DNA from: Lachnospiraceae bacterium
GTDB taxonomy: Bacteria; Bacillota; Clostridia; Lachnospirales; Lachnospiraceae
Assembly: GCA_017397645.1 (NCBI GenBank)
Contig: JAFQIE010000045.1
Location: forward strand, 1-47,097
DNA: 47,097 bases
Reading direction: 5' to 3'
The notes below the pieces were generated by a model. The model was not told the DNA's origin. It searched no databases and saw only the letters and a program-made list of their open reading frames with translations. Below, piece by piece: positions 28,089-38,951 of this stretch. Position 1 is the stretch's first letter. Every line of letters begins with the position of its first letter. Both the position numbers and the translations under genes were made by a program.

Positions 28089-28658
28089 ATGGAAAAGACA
28101 AAAGCAAAAGCAGTTATAGAGGCAATCCTTTTTACCATGGGGGAATCCGTGGAAATCAGTCGTTTGGCAGAAGTCATTGAAGAGGATGTCAGAACAACAA
28201 AAACGATCCTAAAGGAGCTTCAGGAAAAATATGAGCAGGAAGATTCAGGTATTGCTCTGACACAGTTTGAATCTGCAGTGCAGTTATGCACTAAATCGGA
28301 AATGTATGAGTATCTGATTAAGATTGCAAAACAACCAAGGAAAATTACATTGACAGATACCGTGCTGGAAACGCTATCCATCATTGCGTATAAGCAACCC
28401 GTGACAAGAGCGGAGATAGAGAGAGTCCGCGGGGTGAGTTGTGACCACGCGGTCAATAAATTGTTAGAATATGATTTGATTACAGAACTTGGCAGATTAG
28501 ATGCACCCGGCCGTCCGTTGCTGTTTGGGACAACGGAGCAGTTTTTGCGCAGTTTCGGAGTGAAGAGTTTGGAAGAATTGCCTGAGATGAATCCTGTCCA
28601 GGTAGAAGAATTTAAACAACAGGCAGAGGCTGAAGTACAGCTACAGTTGGATATTTAA
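28089..28658 (+). CDS. scpB: Segregation and condensation protein B
   Basis: A 189-residue protein with two winged-helix domains that dimerises and binds ScpA in the SMC complex. The N-terminal domain opens with KAVIEAILFTMGE near 8-20; the second domain has the family motif LETLSIIAYKQPVTRAEIE near 95-113 and ITELGRLDAPGRPLLFGTT near 138-156. AGAAGGAAA precedes the ATG. The last codons form one arm of the terminator, with the stop at the loop. Confidence 0.96.
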   Translation: MEKTKAKAVIEAILFTMGESVEISRLAEVIEEDVRTTKTILKELQEKYEQEDSGIALTQFESAVQLCTKSEMYEYLIKIAKQPRKITLTDTVLETLSIIAYKQPVTRAEIERVRGVSCDHAVNKLLEYDLITELGRLDAPGRPLLFGTTEQFLRSFGVKSLEELPEMNPVQVEEFKQQAEAEVQLQLDI

Positions 28659-28680
28659 TCCAATTGTAGCTGTTTTGTTA
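28638..28680 (+). terminator. Terminator of scpA-scpB, overlapping the scpB 3' end
   Basis: A 16-bp stem (one G-T pair) formed by 28638-28653 and 28659-28674 with loop ATTTA, followed by TTTTGTT. The TAA stop of scpB spans loop and stem. Confidence 0.88.
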
Positions 28681-28782: not shown

Positions 28783-28849
28783 AATCATAGATAGTTTTGT
28801 GTAAATTTATGTTATTTTTGTGTAATTATAATTGTAAGAGAGGAGAAGC

Positions 28850-31800
28850 ATGATGAAGAAAACAAAAAGGGTTACAAGTATTATCTCTTTGCTTCTGGTA
28901 CTGGCTATGGTTTTGACCGGATGTCAGGTGCCGGAGGGAGTCGAAATTCCATCCGGAGTTTCCATTCCTTCAGATTTAACAGAGGAGGAGATTGCAGAAT
29001 TATTGCCCTCTTTGGAGCAGGAGTTAGAAGAAGGCGAAATTGATGCAACAGACAGCGAGGCATCTGGCGATGACAGTACTGTATCAGAAGAAATCCTTGA
29101 AGGATTGGAAGCAGAAGAAGATATGCATGACCCTGAGATCGTGGCTGATGATAAGACCGTAGAAAATGCCACTGTTCAATTGGCTCCCGGTCGTGAGTGG
29201 GTGCATAAAATCCTGAACGTAGAGGAGTATGTCAAAGCATATCCCGATCTTCAGGCTGCTTACGGTGAAAACTGGGATGGATATGTGGATCATTATTTGA
29301 CCACCGGTTTATATGAGGGCAGAGAAGAGGGTAAATTATTTGACCCTTGGGAATACGCAGAGGCCTATCCCGATGTAAAGGCAGCATATGGGGATGATGC
29401 CAATGCGATTATTCAGCATTATGTAAATCATGGATATTACGAAGGTAAGACTGCCGGTACCGCAGCAGGTTATGTGGATATGGCGGATAAGACCTCCAGA
29501 GAATACATGATGAGTCATGATGTGATTGTGCGCGGACCCAGTACCAGAATGGATGCGCTTCTTTCCCATGCGGATATGGCGTTGAAATATGGTCGCAACA
29601 TAGAAGGGGCCCGTTATCCGAAGCTGTTTGCTGATGGATTGAATGTATATACATTGGAACCTTCCACCTGGAGTAAGGGCTCTACCAATGAGTTTGTTGT
29701 GACTAACTTCTTGGGACAGGCTAATTTCCTGAAAATGTTGGACGGCTTGACCATGATGACCGGAGAAGAAAAGTACCGCGAGGCTGCATATGAACAGTTC
29801 ACAGCCCGTTACGAAGACCCTACTCTCCATGACAAACATGGTTTGATTTATGGAACAGTACATAACTTAATTGACCTGATGAGTGAGAAAAAATCACTGG
29901 CTTATCACGAGACTAAGGATGGTCAGATTCCTTTGGAATTTATGTGGGAAGCAGACCCGGAAGCTTGTAAAAAATTCATCGAAGGATATTGGATTTCTCA
30001 CATCTACGACTGGAGCTCATTGACTATGAACCGTCATGGACTTTGGGATAAGGATGTTGATGGCGCAACTATTTGGGATACACCGTACACCAACCCTGAC
30101 CCTTATGTGAAAGAGTCAGAAGTTTCGTTTTTATGTACCGGTAACGATATGATGGAAATGATGTACTTCCTGACAGAGAAAACCGGTGACCCCAAGTACC
30201 AGGCATGGGGAGAGAGAATGCTGGATAAGTACATTGGTGTTATGAATTTGGAAACAGGTCTGATTGGTCCGCAGTACGGACTCCATTCCAGCGAAACATA
30301 TCCGGACGAAAGATTTTTGGTTAGTTTTATTGGTGCGGATTTTGTGATGAACAATGGTTTTGATTTCAAAACAGCTACTTTGGATGATTATAAGATCGCA
30401 GGTTCCAATGCATTTGTCCGCAGAGATACCACCAAGAGTTCCATGGGATACGGTCCCCAAGATTATGTGGAGATGTATCGTTGGAGTGGTGATGAAAAGG
30501 TATACGACTTTATAAAGGCAAATATGAAGGGCTTCGTCGATTATGTATATAATCAAGAGAAGCATATTTATAATACCCCTATGATGAATGATGGTACCGA
30601 CGTCAACGAAGGTGAAGGCGGTAAGGTACTGGTTGCTACCAGAGGTGGGTATTATATCAACGAAGGTAAGAGCTTTGCAGAGCACGAATCTGTATGGGTT
30701 GGTGTTATGCTTGGCGCTATCGAAAGCTATAATATTTTAAAACCGGAAGATGCAGATCTAAAAGCGAGATTATGGGAAGCAATCCGTACTTTCTGCAGAT
30801 TTGAAGATTTGGGTGACATTGGTACTGCTCTTGGAGAGAATGTCAATGTGAACTTGTATTCTACAAACACCACTGCAGAAATGACCTTAGCCGCCATCAT
30901 GCTCTATAAGTATTCCGGAAATGAACAGTACTACAACCTGGCATTGAGACTGGGGGATAATCTTGTAAAGAAGTTTTATAATCCCCAGACAGGTTTATTC
31001 TTCTCCAGCTCCAATGCTCCCTACATCAAATTTGATACAACATATATGTATGCAGTATTCTGTGTAGAGGCAATGTCAAGAGGTTTCGTAAATGAAATCA
31101 ATCTTGACTTAAGCCACAATGGTATTGACTGGATTGTGGTAGGTCAGGGTCAAACTCCTGAAAGCACCCATTTATATGGCCGTGCAAAAGTTAAGGTAAA
31201 GAAAGCAGGCTTTGCTTCTGATAGTGAAACTGTAGTTGTTGATATAGATCCTAAGGTGAACTTTAGTGATTTGGCAGGAGTAGAAGAGGCGAACGCCATC
31301 CGCCAGATGGCCTCCATCGGGGTGGTAACAGGAGAGCCTGACGGTGCTTATGAGCCCGACGCACATGTAACCCGTGCACAGTTTGCGGATATGGTAGCTA
31401 AGCTCTTTGGATATGCGTATGACGCAAGCGTAGTTTTACCATATACAGATGTTACATCTACCAATGAATATTACGAGGCTATTTGCACGCTGTACGGCTT
31501 GGGAATCATTGATGCAAATTTGGGCACTACTACATTTGAGCCTAATAAGATTATCACCAGAGAAGAAGCTGCATCCATGGTAGTTCTTGCACTGGAAGCA
31601 GTGAATCCCAACGAAGATAATTATTACATTGTGGATGCTTTATATCGAATCACCGACAAAGACCAGATTTCCGGTTGGGCTGTTCCTTATGCGGATGTAT
31701 GTACCAACTATCGTCTGATGGTTGACATTGATGATGAAACCTTTGAACCTAAACTTGATGTCACCAAGGCAATGGCTGCCGAGATTCTAGCGGAAGTTGC

Positions 31801-32803
31801 GCGATATGTAGATTTGAAGGTATCCAAGCTGACATTGGAGTTTACTCCTTTTGATGCAGATGCCCAGGTGATTACATGGGAATCTTCCGATACTTCAGTA
31901 GTAGAGATTGACACTAAGGGCAGATTGTATCCTGTAGGTGTCGGAACAGCTAGAATCGTAGCAATAATTGATGGTATCTATTCCTACATTGATGTAACCG
32001 TAGCAGAGAAATCTGAATGGATGATTAAAGACATTGCAATTAATGGGGAGAATCTTGATACCTTTAATTCCAGCGTATTGGAATATGAAATCAATTTGGA
32101 TAAAGGAGTAACACAGGTACCTACCATTACAGCAAATAGCTATAGTGGGGCTCCGGTACAGGTAACATTGCCTGCTGCACTTCCGGGAGAAGCAACTCTT
32201 AAGGTGGAAGGAAGCGAAGTAGAGTATTCTATTCAAATTGATAACGACTATATCGAGTATATTGTTAATGATAATTTTAACCACAAAAATAATACGTCAC
32301 TGAGCAAATTAGGCGATGAGAAATTTTCATGGTTTATCAATGGTACCTCTGTTGCCTATGATAAGGATTGGGCAGTCATTCCCAGAAACTGGGTAAATCC
32401 TAACGAAGAAGGATATGGCTGTATACGTTTCCCTTATAGGCATGAGTATTATTTGAAAGCTAATGCATACCTGTATCTCACAGATGAGACCAAGATTCTT
32501 GCCGGAGATGCCGCGGACGACAAGATTGCCATTGTGGAAATGGAATTGGCAGTGAAAAATATGAAGGAGAAGGACAACGGTTATGAGATTGTTCTGACCA
32601 GATTGCCTGCTAATGATTTATATCACAATGTTGCAAACTTCTTGATTACACCGGATAATACGATTATCCGAAAAATGGATTCTTCCAATAAGAATGTAGC
32701 AACCAGACGCAAAATGCCGGATGGGGAGTTTATCCATTTCGCATTGGCAATGGATATGAAGAATAAAAACTTAAATTACTATATTAAAGGAGAGTTACTG
32801 TAG
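28850..32803 (+). CDS. Giant surface lipoprotein, N-terminal part up to the amber codon
   Basis: A 1,317-residue reading frame ending at TAG. Layout: lipoprotein signal with lipobox LTGC (Cys25); acidic Glu/Ser-rich linker (30-115); two repeats around AYPDLQAAYG and AYPDVKAAYG (120-203), each with HY...G.YEG; a large helix-rich region (215-800) resembling an (alpha/alpha) toroid glycan lyase or hydrolase, family not assigned; three SLH repeats (804-985), which bind cell-wall polymers; a BIG-2-like domain (993-1055); a cadherin-like beta domain (1058-1135); and a jelly-roll module that is cut by the stop. ATG 28853 is an equally good start (AGAGGAG spacing). The same frame continues past the stop. 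Confidence 0.8.
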   Translation: MMKKTKRVTSIISLLLVLAMVLTGCQVPEGVEIPSGVSIPSDLTEEEIAELLPSLEQELEEGEIDATDSEASGDDSTVSEEILEGLEAEEDMHDPEIVADDKTVENATVQLAPGREWVHKILNVEEYVKAYPDLQAAYGENWDGYVDHYLTTGLYEGREEGKLFDPWEYAEAYPDVKAAYGDDANAIIQHYVNHGYYEGKTAGTAAGYVDMADKTSREYMMSHDVIVRGPSTRMDALLSHADMALKYGRNIEGARYPKLFADGLNVYTLEPSTWSKGSTNEFVVTNFLGQANFLKMLDGLTMMTGEEKYREAAYEQFTARYEDPTLHDKHGLIYGTVHNLIDLMSEKKSLAYHETKDGQIPLEFMWEADPEACKKFIEGYWISHIYDWSSLTMNRHGLWDKDVDGATIWDTPYTNPDPYVKESEVSFLCTGNDMMEMMYFLTEKTGDPKYQAWGERMLDKYIGVMNLETGLIGPQYGLHSSETYPDERFLVSFIGADFVMNNGFDFKTATLDDYKIAGSNAFVRRDTTKSSMGYGPQDYVEMYRWSGDEKVYDFIKANMKGFVDYVYNQEKHIYNTPMMNDGTDVNEGEGGKVLVATRGGYYINEGKSFAEHESVWVGVMLGAIESYNILKPEDADLKARLWEAIRTFCRFEDLGDIGTALGENVNVNLYSTNTTAEMTLAAIMLYKYSGNEQYYNLALRLGDNLVKKFYNPQTGLFFSSSNAPYIKFDTTYMYAVFCVEAMSRGFVNEINLDLSHNGIDWIVVGQGQTPESTHLYGRAKVKVKKAGFASDSETVVVDIDPKVNFSDLAGVEEANAIRQMASIGVVTGEPDGAYEPDAHVTRAQFADMVAKLFGYAYDASVVLPYTDVTSTNEYYEAICTLYGLGIIDANLGTTTFEPNKIITREEAASMVVLALEAVNPNEDNYYIVDALYRITDKDQISGWAVPYADVCTNYRLMVDIDDETFEPKLDVTKAMAAEILAEVARYVDLKVSKLTLEFTPFDADAQVITWESSDTSVVEIDTKGRLYPVGVGTARIVAIIDGIYSYIDVTVAEKSEWMIKDIAINGENLDTFNSSVLEYEINLDKGVTQVPTITANSYSGAPVQVTLPAALPGEATLKVEGSEVEYSIQIDNDYIEYIVNDNFNHKNNTSLSKLGDEKFSWFINGTSVAYDKDWAVIPRNWVNPNEEGYGCIRFPYRHEYYLKANAYLYLTDETKILAGDAADDKIAIVEMELAVKNMKEKDNGYEIVLTRLPANDLYHNVANFLITPDNTIIRKMDSSNKNVATRRKMPDGEFIHFALAMDMKNKNLNYYIKGELL
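32801..32803 (+). other. In-frame amber codon splitting the giant lipoprotein gene
   Basis: The frame stays open after this TAG (codon 1318) for another 1,105 codons. The codons between the TAG and the next ATG complete the jelly-roll module: GELL(stop)KDVPFY aligns with GVMIEKACAPVY of module 2 and GELVES of module 4. The stop replaces a Glu position, so one change from GAG explains it. At least eight other genes in the window end in TAG, so TAG is a normal stop here. Confidence 0.9.
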
Positions 32804-32893
32804 AAGGATGTTCCTTTCTATCATAATAATTCGCCTGACTTTGGTTGTATCCGTTATACCACCACAAGAGAAGAGCATGAATCCAACGCCGAA

Positions 32894-35800
32894 ATGTTCA
32901 TGGATAACTTGAAAGTTTATAAGTTGACCCACGAAGCTTTTGAAGAAATGTTCAGTCAGGAAGTTGTGCCTGCCGCTACACCCGAACCGGAATGGATCAG
33001 CAATCCTATTGATGAGAACTTTGACAAGTATCCCGACGGTACTACACATTCTGCTATGGTAACGGATTACTATGGCTCGGTAGTAAATAGTTATATGTGG
33101 GAATATCAGAAGGTGGTACCCAAGACCGAGGTTGACCCTACGGCTGCTGCTACGGATAAGGTGTTCATGGTTCAGACCAATCCTGAATGTCCCATGGATG
33201 GTAACTTAAGATTTACGTTAGATACTTCCGTAGCTCATGTGCTTGGTGAAGATGCGATAGATGAAAATCTTGTTATGGAATTTGATTTCCTGGTTTCCGG
33301 TACAAGTTCTAATTATAAGGGATTTGTGCTTGCAATGGCACAGCATTATCCTACCGGTACCAAATCAGTAAATAAGTTTGTTATCAATGATAAGGAAGTT
33401 TACAGATATCTTGATTCCACCCATACTTCGGATGGCACACTTCGTACATCTGTTACGAAGGATGAATTTAACCATATGAAGATCGTTGTGAACAAGAAGA
33501 CCAAAACTACAAGCTATTACATCAATGGCGTGATGATAGAAAAGGCTTGTGCACCTGTATATTCCAATGTACCTGACTTTGGTACGGTTTTAATTGGCCC
33601 CATGCAGGATAATACACGAAACCTTGACGCGAAGATTTACCTTGATAATCTGAAGGTTTATACAGCACCTGTTACAGAGGAGCCTACACCCAGACCTACC
33701 AATGTGCCGGTTCCTACGCAAACACCTGCGCCTACGGCAACACCTCATCCTTATCCCATCGACCAGACCTTTGACACATGGCCTGAAAATGGATTATTCC
33801 GTAACAGATTCGGTGATCATTACTCTACTTCCGGTTCCGGATATAGTAAGATTGTGAAGAGAAGTGTTGTGGAAGCCGGTGCTCCTGCTACAGACTTTGT
33901 GGTTGAGTTTACACCCCAGACAGACAAGGACACGGCATATCGTTTCAACTTAAATGCAGATAAGGCCTTTGCACTTGGAGATAAGGCGTTTGGTAGCAGA
34001 TATGTAGCAGTTGAAATGGAAGTTGCGATTGTTGGTGAAGACGAAAGAACACAAGGGTATGTCATCCAATTGGCAAGACTTCTTTCCGGTGGTTATCATT
34101 CTGTGGCAACACTGCATATCACAGATACCCAGATTGCCGCAAGAATTGATTCCAGTCGTAATGACAACAGAACCATTCGTCCTTATACCAAGGGTGAATT
34201 CGGTAAAGTGAAAGTGATTGTGGATAAGCAGACCAAGAACTTTAACTTCTATTGGAATGATGAGTTAGTCATTGCCGATAAGACACCGTTGTTTGCCACC
34301 ACACCGGAATTGGGCGCGGTGACCTTTAGCGTAGTGAAGGGAGATGCCGGTGTCGATTCCAAACTTTATGTGGATAATGTAAAAATGTATGAACTGGATG
34401 CAATCCCTGACGCGCCCACCAGTGCACCTGCCGTGCCTACCGTAGCGCCTACGCAGGCACCTGTATCCACAGCTGTACCTACAACGGCACCGGAACCTAC
34501 TATGGCACCCGGTGAACCCACTATACCTCCTTCTGTACAACCTACGGCTGCACCTACACAGGCACCTGTGTATACGCCTGTAATCGTTGATGAAAACTTT
34601 GATTCCTACGAGTTAAATACTCAGGCCGGAAGTATGTCCGGAGAATACTGGGTAGGAAGTTGGGGCATTTCCTATAATTACGACAAGGGTAAAGTGGTTG
34701 CGAAGAAAGATACTTTAGAAGCGACGGCAGCAGGTACAGACAGGTTGTATGAAGTAAGACCTGCAAGCACTTTGGATGAAAAGCAGTACAATTCTACCAT
34801 GCGTATTACCTTAACCGAGGAGAAATGGTATCCTCTTGGTGAAACAGTAACCGACGAAAGGTATATGGTCCTGGAAGCAGACATTGCCTTAAACGGTGGC
34901 GGCACACAGACCAATTCTGCCGGATACTTGTTCCGTATCGGTGGCGATGGCAACTACGCTCTGACAAACTTCAGATTGTATGCAGACTACCTTGGAAGAA
35001 ATATAAGCTCTTCGGTTGTGACCGATCTTCGTGCTGACAATAAGAACGCTTACACCAAGGGACAAATCGGTCATCTGAAATGGGTGTTGGATAGAGAGAC
35101 CAAGGAGTACTCCTATTTCTGGAATGGCGAGTTGGTAGAAAGCGAAGTTTTGGCTCAGTTTAGTGGAGCGCATCAGACGCCTGCAGTGAAGTATCTGATG
35201 ATTCAGGCACCTACCGTTACCCTGGAAAGTGGTGTTACAAGTTTTGATGAAGCGTTCTATATCGACAATGTGAAGTTATATGTAACAAATGATGATCAAA
35301 TGGCTACTCCGGCGCCCACAACGGCACCGGAGGCCACTGCAGCACCTACTGAAGCGCCTGTGGCAACGGAAGCACCTACCGCTGCGCCTACTGCAGCGCC
35401 TACCGAGGCTCCTATAGCGAACTTGTATGCTATCAATACATCTTTTGATGAGTTTGCCGTAGATACTTTAGCTCATACCTTGACCGGTGACTTCTGGACC
35501 TGTGAATGGGGACTGAGCTACCACCATAATAGAGGAAAGGTAGTAGCAAAGAACTCTGTTTTTGCCGGTGCAGCCGCAAATGACAACTGTGTAGAAATAG
35601 GTGTTTCTACCTCTGTAGATGAGAAATTCTATAATCTGCCCTACTACATCAAAATCAATGCAGATCAACAGCTTCCCCTTGGAAGTGCTGTAGACAACCA
35701 AAAATATGTGGTTGTTGAGTTTGATATGGCAATCGTAGGTAACGATGAGAAAACAGAAGGATATGAGATTCGTTTCGGCGGAGAAGGCAACTTTAGCGTT

Positions 35801-36121
35801 GCGCAGTTTAGATTATACGATAATAGACTGGAGCGTAGCATTGACTCGTCGACAAGAGTAGAAAAAGCATCTTATACCAAAGGTCAATTTGCACATATGA
35901 AGTTGGTCATTGACAGAGCCACCAAAAAATACATCTATTACTGGAATGGCCAGTTGGTGGAAAGCGATGTAACAGCAATGTTTCCCGGAGAAGCACATAC
36001 TCCTGCACTGAAGAATCTTCGTTTTACTGCGCTGAAGGAAACATTGGCGGATGGTGTGGATAATCTGGATTCGAAATTCTATCTTGACAATGTCAAAATA
36101 TATACGGCTGAAGGATTATAA
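32894..36121 (+). CDS. Giant surface lipoprotein, C-terminal part with four more jelly-roll modules
   Basis: 1,075 residues from the first ATG after the amber codon; the frame itself is open from 32804. It begins with the end of jelly-roll module 1 (MDNLKVYKL) and then contains four related modules of about 200-240 residues (starting near 33003, 33756, 34579 and 35422), each opening with an (E/Q/S)NFD or FD motif and closing with (L/V/I)DN(L/V)K(V/M/L/I)Y. Pro/Thr/Ala linkers separate them. The modules look like concanavalin-type carbohydrate-binding domains. No credible ribosome binding site, signal peptide or anchor exists here, so independent translation would give a mislocalised fragment. 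It is best read as the rest of the upstream gene. Confidence 0.7.
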   Translation: MFMDNLKVYKLTHEAFEEMFSQEVVPAATPEPEWISNPIDENFDKYPDGTTHSAMVTDYYGSVVNSYMWEYQKVVPKTEVDPTAAATDKVFMVQTNPECPMDGNLRFTLDTSVAHVLGEDAIDENLVMEFDFLVSGTSSNYKGFVLAMAQHYPTGTKSVNKFVINDKEVYRYLDSTHTSDGTLRTSVTKDEFNHMKIVVNKKTKTTSYYINGVMIEKACAPVYSNVPDFGTVLIGPMQDNTRNLDAKIYLDNLKVYTAPVTEEPTPRPTNVPVPTQTPAPTATPHPYPIDQTFDTWPENGLFRNRFGDHYSTSGSGYSKIVKRSVVEAGAPATDFVVEFTPQTDKDTAYRFNLNADKAFALGDKAFGSRYVAVEMEVAIVGEDERTQGYVIQLARLLSGGYHSVATLHITDTQIAARIDSSRNDNRTIRPYTKGEFGKVKVIVDKQTKNFNFYWNDELVIADKTPLFATTPELGAVTFSVVKGDAGVDSKLYVDNVKMYELDAIPDAPTSAPAVPTVAPTQAPVSTAVPTTAPEPTMAPGEPTIPPSVQPTAAPTQAPVYTPVIVDENFDSYELNTQAGSMSGEYWVGSWGISYNYDKGKVVAKKDTLEATAAGTDRLYEVRPASTLDEKQYNSTMRITLTEEKWYPLGETVTDERYMVLEADIALNGGGTQTNSAGYLFRIGGDGNYALTNFRLYADYLGRNISSSVVTDLRADNKNAYTKGQIGHLKWVLDRETKEYSYFWNGELVESEVLAQFSGAHQTPAVKYLMIQAPTVTLESGVTSFDEAFYIDNVKLYVTNDDQMATPAPTTAPEATAAPTEAPVATEAPTAAPTAAPTEAPIANLYAINTSFDEFAVDTLAHTLTGDFWTCEWGLSYHHNRGKVVAKNSVFAGAAANDNCVEIGVSTSVDEKFYNLPYYIKINADQQLPLGSAVDNQKYVVVEFDMAIVGNDEKTEGYEIRFGGEGNFSVAQFRLYDNRLERSIDSSTRVEKASYTKGQFAHMKLVIDRATKKYIYYWNGQLVESDVTAMFPGEAHTPALKNLRFTALKETLADGVDNLDSKFYLDNVKIYTAEGL
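34400..34572 (+). repeat. Pro/Thr/Ala-rich linker between jelly-roll modules 3 and 4
   Basis: Low-complexity coding DNA built from (A/T)P(T/V) steps. A similar linker lies at 35305-35420 and a shorter one at 33670-33755. Such linkers are flexible and often O-glycosylated on surface proteins. Confidence 0.7.
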
Positions 36122-36152
36122 CTGTATACAAGTATTAAATGGAAAAACTTTC

Positions 36153-36190
36153 AAAAAAAGGCAATTCGCTATTTGCGGATTGCTTTTTTT
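36153..36190 (+). terminator. Terminator of the giant lipoprotein gene
   Basis: AAAAAAAGGCAAT with CGC (36153-36169) pairs with GCGGATTGCTTTTTTT (36175-36190), a stem of about 12 bp plus A-T pairs and a seven-T tail. Confidence 0.85.
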
Positions 36191-37745: not shown

Positions 37746-38528
37746 ATGAAGAAATTAACATCGTATGTTTGTATGATTGCCTTGGTGTTAGGACTGGCCG
37801 GATGTAGCGAGAAAAATGATACCTTAACTCAATACGAGCAGAAGAAACTTGATACTGCACAGCAAATTGCAGTAAACCAATATGTGCCCTATCTGGCAAG
37901 CGTAATTGGTACGCAAGAAGCTTTGGATATTGCTGAGTATACACCCGAAGAAATTGAATATAGTATGTCTCAGCAAAAACGTATGAATATGGACGGGTAT
38001 GGATTAAAATCAGCTATAATTTCTTTCGAATCCGGGCTGAAGGCAATTGGAAAAATATATGCATTTGGCGAAACAAGCGCAACAATAGATGGAAAAGATA
38101 TCATTGTTAAAGTCGCAATTGATGGCGAGTTGAAAGATGCCGAAGCTGAAATTATTATTTCAAATGATTCGTTTTATATAATGAGATCAGCAGCGCTGAA
38201 CCCCATCGATACTTTTGAAGAATCTATGGCAAAAGCAGGTATGAATACCTTGATTGGTATGGGCTCCGTATTTGCTGTGTTGATTTTGATTAGTTTGATT
38301 ATTTCCTGTTTGGGATTGCTTTCCGGAAACGGGAAAAAGGCAAAACCTGCGCCCGCTGCAAAACCTGCAGCACCCGCACCTGTGGCAGCACCTGTAGTTG
38401 CACCGCAGCCTAATTTAGTATCAGATTTAGAATTGGTAGCCGTTATCGCAGCAGCCATTGCAGCCAGCGAGGGAGCTACTTCTACCGATGGATTTGTAGT
38501 ACGTTCTATCAGAAGAAGAACATTTTAG
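37746..38528 (+). CDS. OadG-like small subunit with extended lipoprotein N-terminus
   Basis: A 260-residue protein. It starts with a lipoprotein signal (lipobox LAGC, Cys20), then an extracellular region of about 140 residues similar in style to DUF3887 sensor-like domains. A transmembrane helix (about 178-198) is followed by an Ala/Pro linker and the OadG-type C-terminus DLELVAVIAAAIAASEG...FVVRSIRRR. OadG holds the decarboxylase complex together and binds the carboxyltransferase through its C-terminal tail. Classical OadG has only about 80-100 residues, so the extracellular domain is an addition. It is the second gene of the operon, 17 bases after the first. Confidence 0.85.
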   Translation: MKKLTSYVCMIALVLGLAGCSEKNDTLTQYEQKKLDTAQQIAVNQYVPYLASVIGTQEALDIAEYTPEEIEYSMSQQKRMNMDGYGLKSAIISFESGLKAIGKIYAFGETSATIDGKDIIVKVAIDGELKDAEAEIIISNDSFYIMRSAALNPIDTFEESMAKAGMNTLIGMGSVFAVLILISLIISCLGLLSGNGKKAKPAPAAKPAAPAPVAAPVVAPQPNLVSDLELVAVIAAAIAASEGATSTDGFVVRSIRRRTF

Positions 38529-38546
38529 AAAGTGGAGGATAATGAA

Positions 38547-38951
38547 ATGAAGAATTATACTATTACCGTAAATGGCAACGTATATGATGTTGTAGTAGAA
38601 GAGGGCGCCGGTGTTGCAGCAGCACCTGCAGCAAGACCTGTGGCTCCTGTAGCACCCGTAGCAGCACCTGCACCTGTAGCAGCACCCGCACCTGCGGCAG
38701 CACCCGCACCTGCAGCAGCACCTGCCGGAGCAGCCGGTAGCATCAATGTAGAAGCCGGTGCAGCAGGCAAGATTTTCAAGATTGAGAAAAACGTAGGGGC
38801 AGCTGTAAAGAAGGGCGACGCTGTGATTATTTTGGAAGCTATGAAGATGGAGATCCCTGTGGTTGCTCCCGAAGATGGTACTGTTGCAAGCGTGAATGTA
38901 ACAGTTGGTGAAATGGTAGAAGCAGGTGCAGTACTTGCTACCTTGAACTAA
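38547..38951 (+). CDS. Biotin carboxyl carrier protein of the Na+ decarboxylase (1.3S-like)
   Basis: A 134-residue carrier. Residues 1-20 are a conserved strand pair (MKNYTITVNGNVYDVVVEEG), 22-64 an Ala/Pro-rich flexible arm, and 65-134 the biotinyl domain. The biotin attachment site is EAMKMEI with Lys100. The arm lets biotin swing between carboxyltransferase active sites and the membrane pump. ATG 38547 is chosen because GGAGG lies eight bases upstream; the upstream GTG would overlap that site. Known relatives are MmdC/OadA biotin domains and the 1.3S subunit of transcarboxylase. Confidence 0.95.
   Translation: MKNYTITVNGNVYDVVVEEGAGVAAAPAARPVAPVAPVAAPAPVAAPAPAAAPAPAAAPAGAAGSINVEAGAAGKIFKIEKNVGAAVKKGDAVIILEAMKMEIPVVAPEDGTVASVNVTVGEMVEAGAVLATLN

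Follow-up and report, generated by a model that had tools for sequence, protein, structure and literature searches.

The open frame analysed here runs along the plus strand from an ATG at 28850 to a TAA at 36119-36121, within a window of 47,097 nucleotides (the whole stretch of DNA that was analysed). It is interrupted by an in-frame TAG at 32801-32803, which leaves 1317 codons before the stop and 1105 after it. A preliminary description of this DNA had recognized the open frame correctly but gave its length as 2,420 codons; we counted 2,423, including the TAG. These contain one stop and no frameshift, and no second stop was present. The features of the locus are as follows.

28637..28673, plus strand: terminator-like hairpin 3' of scpB, the upstream unit boundary (16 pairs, T tail)
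28841..28845, plus strand: AGGAG ribosome-binding site preceding the ATG at 28850, read from the sequence
28850..32803, plus strand: upstream part of the frame, 1317 codons plus the TAG
28850..28924, plus strand: signal peptide ending in a lipobox-like LTGC, with Cys25 invariant in three aligned paralogues
29621..31114, plus strand: PL2-type pectate lyase domain, PF06917 (Pfam E 5.2e-72)
31439..31573, plus strand: SLH, the best-scoring of two passing stretches (E 3.1e-20 for the whole protein)
31826..31966, plus strand: Big_2 Ig-like domain (23.6 bits, cut-off 22.8; E 4.9e-5)
32258..32920, plus strand: repeated module 1, with the TAG inside (199.3 bits)
32804..36121, plus strand: downstream part of the frame, 1105 open codons up to the TAA
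33002..33661, plus strand: module 2, its second half a Laminin_G_3 match (E 6.9e-11)
33752..34390, plus strand: module 3 (module profile)
34580..35281, plus strand: module 4 (module profile)
35426..36103, plus strand: module 5 (module profile)
36154..36190, plus strand: strong terminator-like hairpin past the final stop, with a T run in the 3' arm (folding)

From these features, 28850-36121 is predicted to encode a giant surface protein made up of a lipobox-like signal, a PL2-type pectate lyase, SLH, Big_2 and five repeated modules. The Pfam and PDB matches thus sharpen what had been described simply as a surface protein. The LTGC at the end of the signal is presumably a lipobox. The PF06917 match was near full-length (profile positions 2-483 of 491) and scored 243.5 bits against a cut-off of 26.6, which places the domain in that family; the NCBIfam PelW profile (pectate disaccharide-lyase) gave 107.8 bits and did not reach its cut-off of 1000. 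In a search of PDB sequences, residues 233-745 aligned with 6ojk_A (E 4e-46), and the lyase part also matched 6ojl and 2v8i-k, which like 6ojk are periplasmic pectate lyases, and the exopolygalacturonate lyase 5a29. His, His-Glu and Arg-His positions, which we take to have a catalytic or metal role, are common to the window lyase and 6ojk_A in the alignment. While the domain aligns with the PL2-type lyases 6ojk, 2v8i-k and 5a29 and passes the Pfam cut-off, it differs from them in sitting within a giant SLH and multi-module surface protein. The SLH region matched the S-layer protein Sap among PDB sequences. The five modules are 213-234 residues long, each with a DN[LV]KxY motif at its end, and a profile built from them had no match to PDB sequences up to E 0.1. 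Module mapping agrees with the earlier placement of the stop inside the first module with four more modules downstream. The TAG does not coincide with a domain boundary; about 40 codons of module 1 lie beyond it.

Three paralogues from the same assembly (2387, 2926 and 2115 aa) are open through the identical domain order and align without a gap at the TAG, which argues that the open frame across the stop is not due to chance. Third-position GC was 0.41 on both sides. The claims that an otherwise intact gene carries an in-frame TAG at 32801, and that frame, codon use and module alignment continue across it, are therefore borne out. The idea that two separate genes lie here was rejected: the first in-frame ATG, GTG or TTG past the stop is the ATG at 32894, which falls within module 1, and a protein started there would lack a signal peptide; each paralogue, moreover, is one gene. 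The hairpins flanking 28850-36121 on both sides support one transcription unit with one gene spanning the TAG. The downstream hairpin (-20.3 kcal/mol, z -7.0, 0/200 shuffles as good) was found by folding and is absent from the output of the scan that gave the upstream one at 28637-28673, a scan that returned 5 sites in total compared to 5.5 expected from shuffles. For annotation, the locus is one interrupted PL2 gene and not two genes.

The gene content would fit an organism of the Lachnospiraceae or a similar gut group. The source assembly (1.81 Mb in 46 contigs, 74% complete) has nine PL2 (PF06917) places, and none of the nine has a stop inside the lyase match, which points to redundancy. 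Seven of the places lie in genes that are complete and open, 2115-2926 aa in length (two on contig C35 and one each on C23, C31, C25, C18 and C39), the window gene lies on C44, and the ninth place, on C41, runs off the contig end. The three paralogues used for the site alignment were the top scorers, namely both C35 genes and the C23 gene; the other four complete genes were left out. Of the 58 places in the assembly that match the module, only module 1 of the window gene contained a stop, the other 57 being stop-free. In another scan, which gave 51 places, three were listed with internal stops (two TAA and one TGA). Those on C35 and C31 run past the gene's own end, and for the one at the start of contig C2 the module-place scan showed no stop inside its module.

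At the position of the TAG, the equivalent module 1 has a sense codon in all three paralogues: Gln in the first C35 gene and in the C23 gene, and Glu in the second C35 gene. These Gln and Glu codons are one base away from TAG. The same column in the 20 intact modules of the four aligned proteins (the interrupted module was left out) held Glu in 12, Gln in 3, Ala in 2, and Ile, Gly and Lys in one each. The position had been described as a Glu position. This holds for the modules at large, where Glu is the commonest residue, but not for the equivalent module, in which two of three paralogues have Gln.

To estimate the age of the stop, the window copy was scored at conserved columns, defined as those where the three paralogues agree. 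Agreement was 73/106 over an upstream span of 235 alignment columns (module 1 and the residues immediately preceding it) and 208/297 over a downstream span of 800 columns (what remains of module 1, plus modules 2-4; Fisher p = 0.81). When a longer upstream stretch beginning in the SLH region was used, agreement was 144/208 (p = 0.84 compared to downstream). Because the paralogues are about 50% identical, both comparisons are poorly suited to revealing a young change. The earlier statement that four modules follow without decay was upheld for modules 2-4, module 5 lying outside the compared columns. By calculation, a downstream part free of constraint would be expected to have acquired another stop, with 95% chance, after 2-3% substitutions per site; with assumed indel rates, 0.7-1.7% would suffice. 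A downstream part as well kept as the upstream part implies that the stop is young, that it is read through or that it is a consensus error. If the stop inactivates the downstream half, it would have to be young, yet the absence of decay fits a sequence error or read-through equally well.

A sequence or consensus error, or a strain mixture collapsed into one contig, would mean that few cells, if any, carry the TAG. We regard this as possible though rather unlikely. A change of one base is enough to produce the TAG, the surroundings are all intact, and an assembly of 46 contigs that is 74% complete looks like a metagenome bin. On the other hand, the places sampled gave no further sign of poor base quality: the other 57 module places were free of stops, as were all 39 ABC-transporter places (35 of them over the cut-off).

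That the organism reads TAG as an amino acid is hardly credible. The stops of 33 hand-picked plus-strand genes in the window were TAA in 17, TAG in 11 and TGA in 5, and in 7 of the 11 genes ending in TAG a further in-frame stop follows within 14 codons. RF1 is present (520 bits, cut-off 423). This agrees with the earlier argument that TAG serves many window genes as a normal stop, which speaks against general recoding, as does the fact that none of the remaining 57 module places has a TAG. The preliminary description had also proposed a search of the genome for an amber suppressor tRNA or pylTS. No CUA anticodon occurred among the 33 tRNA genes found in the 74%-complete assembly, and the best PylS score was 25.8 bits against a cut-off of 178.15, an absence that is not final in an assembly of this completeness. 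tRNAs for Ala, Ile, Asp and Phe were missing from the 33, so the tRNA list is incomplete and a suppressor tRNA could be missing too. This leaves room for an undetected suppressor and is not positive evidence for one. The list includes two tRNA-Gln(CTG) genes separated by some 2 kb (C35:59501-59572 and C35:61544-61615).

Leaky termination, in which a low background of UAG misreading, by a glutamine tRNA for instance, yields a little full-length protein and maintains selection on the downstream part, would explain why that part shows no visible decay. The base after the TAG (+4) is A; a U there reduces read-through in E. coli and yeast according to the consulted part of PMC5289835. The same part reports misreading of UAG by tRNA-Gln(CUG) in yeast, and the assembly has its two tRNA-Gln(CTG) genes. 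Many bacterial in-frame stops have also been argued to be read through (PMC7918605, in the sections consulted). Nevertheless, we consider leaky termination quite improbable. A +4 A also follows 4 of the 11 ordinary TAG-ended genes in the window, and the youth of the stop accounts for the lack of decay. The RNA after the TAG showed nothing unusual that might stimulate read-through (z -0.67 over 131 nt, with 48/200 shuffles folding as well). Moreover, the stop is conserved in none of the three paralogues, which is not the pattern of programmed read-through. It is more speculative still, and in our view very doubtful, that the TAG acts as a dimmer, with misreading by glutamine tRNA giving a major short and a minor long, five-module form of the lyase while the population switches back and forth between sense and stop alleles. 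Of the four options originally offered for this stop, a recent change and a sequence error still stand. A strain-level switch and programmed read-through gained no positive support, given the lack of unusual RNA structure, the 57 stop-free module places and the sense codon in every aligned paralogue.

The TAG is probably a recent, unsuppressed single-base nonsense mutation in one of nine PL2 genes, tolerated through redundancy. The gene has the marks of a nonsense allele, with a single lesion, the rest intact and a sense codon in its relatives. A one-base change, for example from a Gln or Glu codon, would have produced the TAG at 32801, which we take to be real in the cell. Ordinary termination by RF1, with no read-through of importance, would then give a protein of 1317 residues. 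This truncated protein would retain its signal, lyase domain, SLH region and Ig-like domain, and may well be active. It would lack modules 2-5 entirely, along with the last part of module 1; this lost region probably serves in carbohydrate binding or as a spacer. Intact paralogues would supply the function of the gene, so that the loss would be tolerated, and there would have been too little time yet for the downstream half to decay.

A related possibility is that the truncation is adaptive, one copy having shed modules 1-5 and so become a short lyase, anchored to the cell, that is of use to it. The stop indeed spares the lyase, SLH and Ig-like regions, and the His, His-Glu and Arg-His positions shared with 6ojk_A are kept. 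However, the cut misses the domain boundary, taking about the last 40 codons off module 1, and no evidence of selection was found, making this very improbable.

Young internal stops in bacterial genes are already known. According to the sections consulted of Belinky et al. (2021; PMC7918605), in-frame stops are widespread in bacterial genes and short-lived, mostly on the time scale of polymorphism, and alternation between TAG and CAG serves there as a worked example. In the same sections, carbohydrate transport and metabolism is the second most abundant category by count, with no major category trend except for mobile elements; the authors warn of artefacts and read many in-frame stops as read-through. 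The stop described here resembles the cases in those sections in being a single in-frame TAG where relatives have a sense codon, here Gln in two of the three paralogues, with the frame kept on both sides. It differs in that their cases were filtered to stops common to at least two species (PMC7918605, as consulted), whereas ours comes from one assembly, where an artefact is possible. As a nonsense allele, the TAG has little importance beyond annotation. Because several intact paralogues are present in the same genome, it nonetheless offers a clean case for following a young internal stop in populations.

Relatives of the gene were scarce outside the source assembly. Two genome-contig scans for orthologues, which relied on exact matching of short patterns and may not include the organism's own genome or near ones, returned no relative, and viral contigs had no match to a 26-base pattern. 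None of 137 other genomes of the genus matched the query protein at E<=1e-80 (at most the best four candidates per genome were scored), and none of 60 sampled congeners matched the DNA around the TAG (at most the best five). Among 397 genomes of the family, one other matched at E<=1e-40, in the lyase domain only (at most the best two candidates per genome); with such candidate limits, weaker relatives in the genus and the family may be missed. PF06917, found at nine places in the source assembly, occurred in 0/137 other genomes of the genus; of the 138 genomes in the genus sample, 66 reach a completeness of 90% or more with contamination of 5% or less. The pattern suggests that giant PL2/SLH surface lyases were acquired and expanded in one lineage, which is more unusual than the stop codon itself.

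The paralogues also share a block of 60 residues before the lyase (residues 158-217, about 29321-29500), with 93-100% protein identity and 83-92% nucleotide identity in four paralogue pairs, while their lyase regions match the window copy at 52-57% identity. The block may reflect gene conversion or strong constraint. Downstream of the lyase gene, the mechanical ORF of a carboxyltransferase gene starts at 36139, just upstream of the hairpin at 36154-36190, so its true start is probably further downstream. Within 37746-38951, a biotin-carrier gene lies in frame with an OAD-gamma gene, 140 open codons following the TAG of the latter. This second candidate for an in-frame TAG, after the OAD-gamma gene (37746-38528), is an ordinary stop; the biotin-carrier gene has its own GGAGG and an ATG at 38548.
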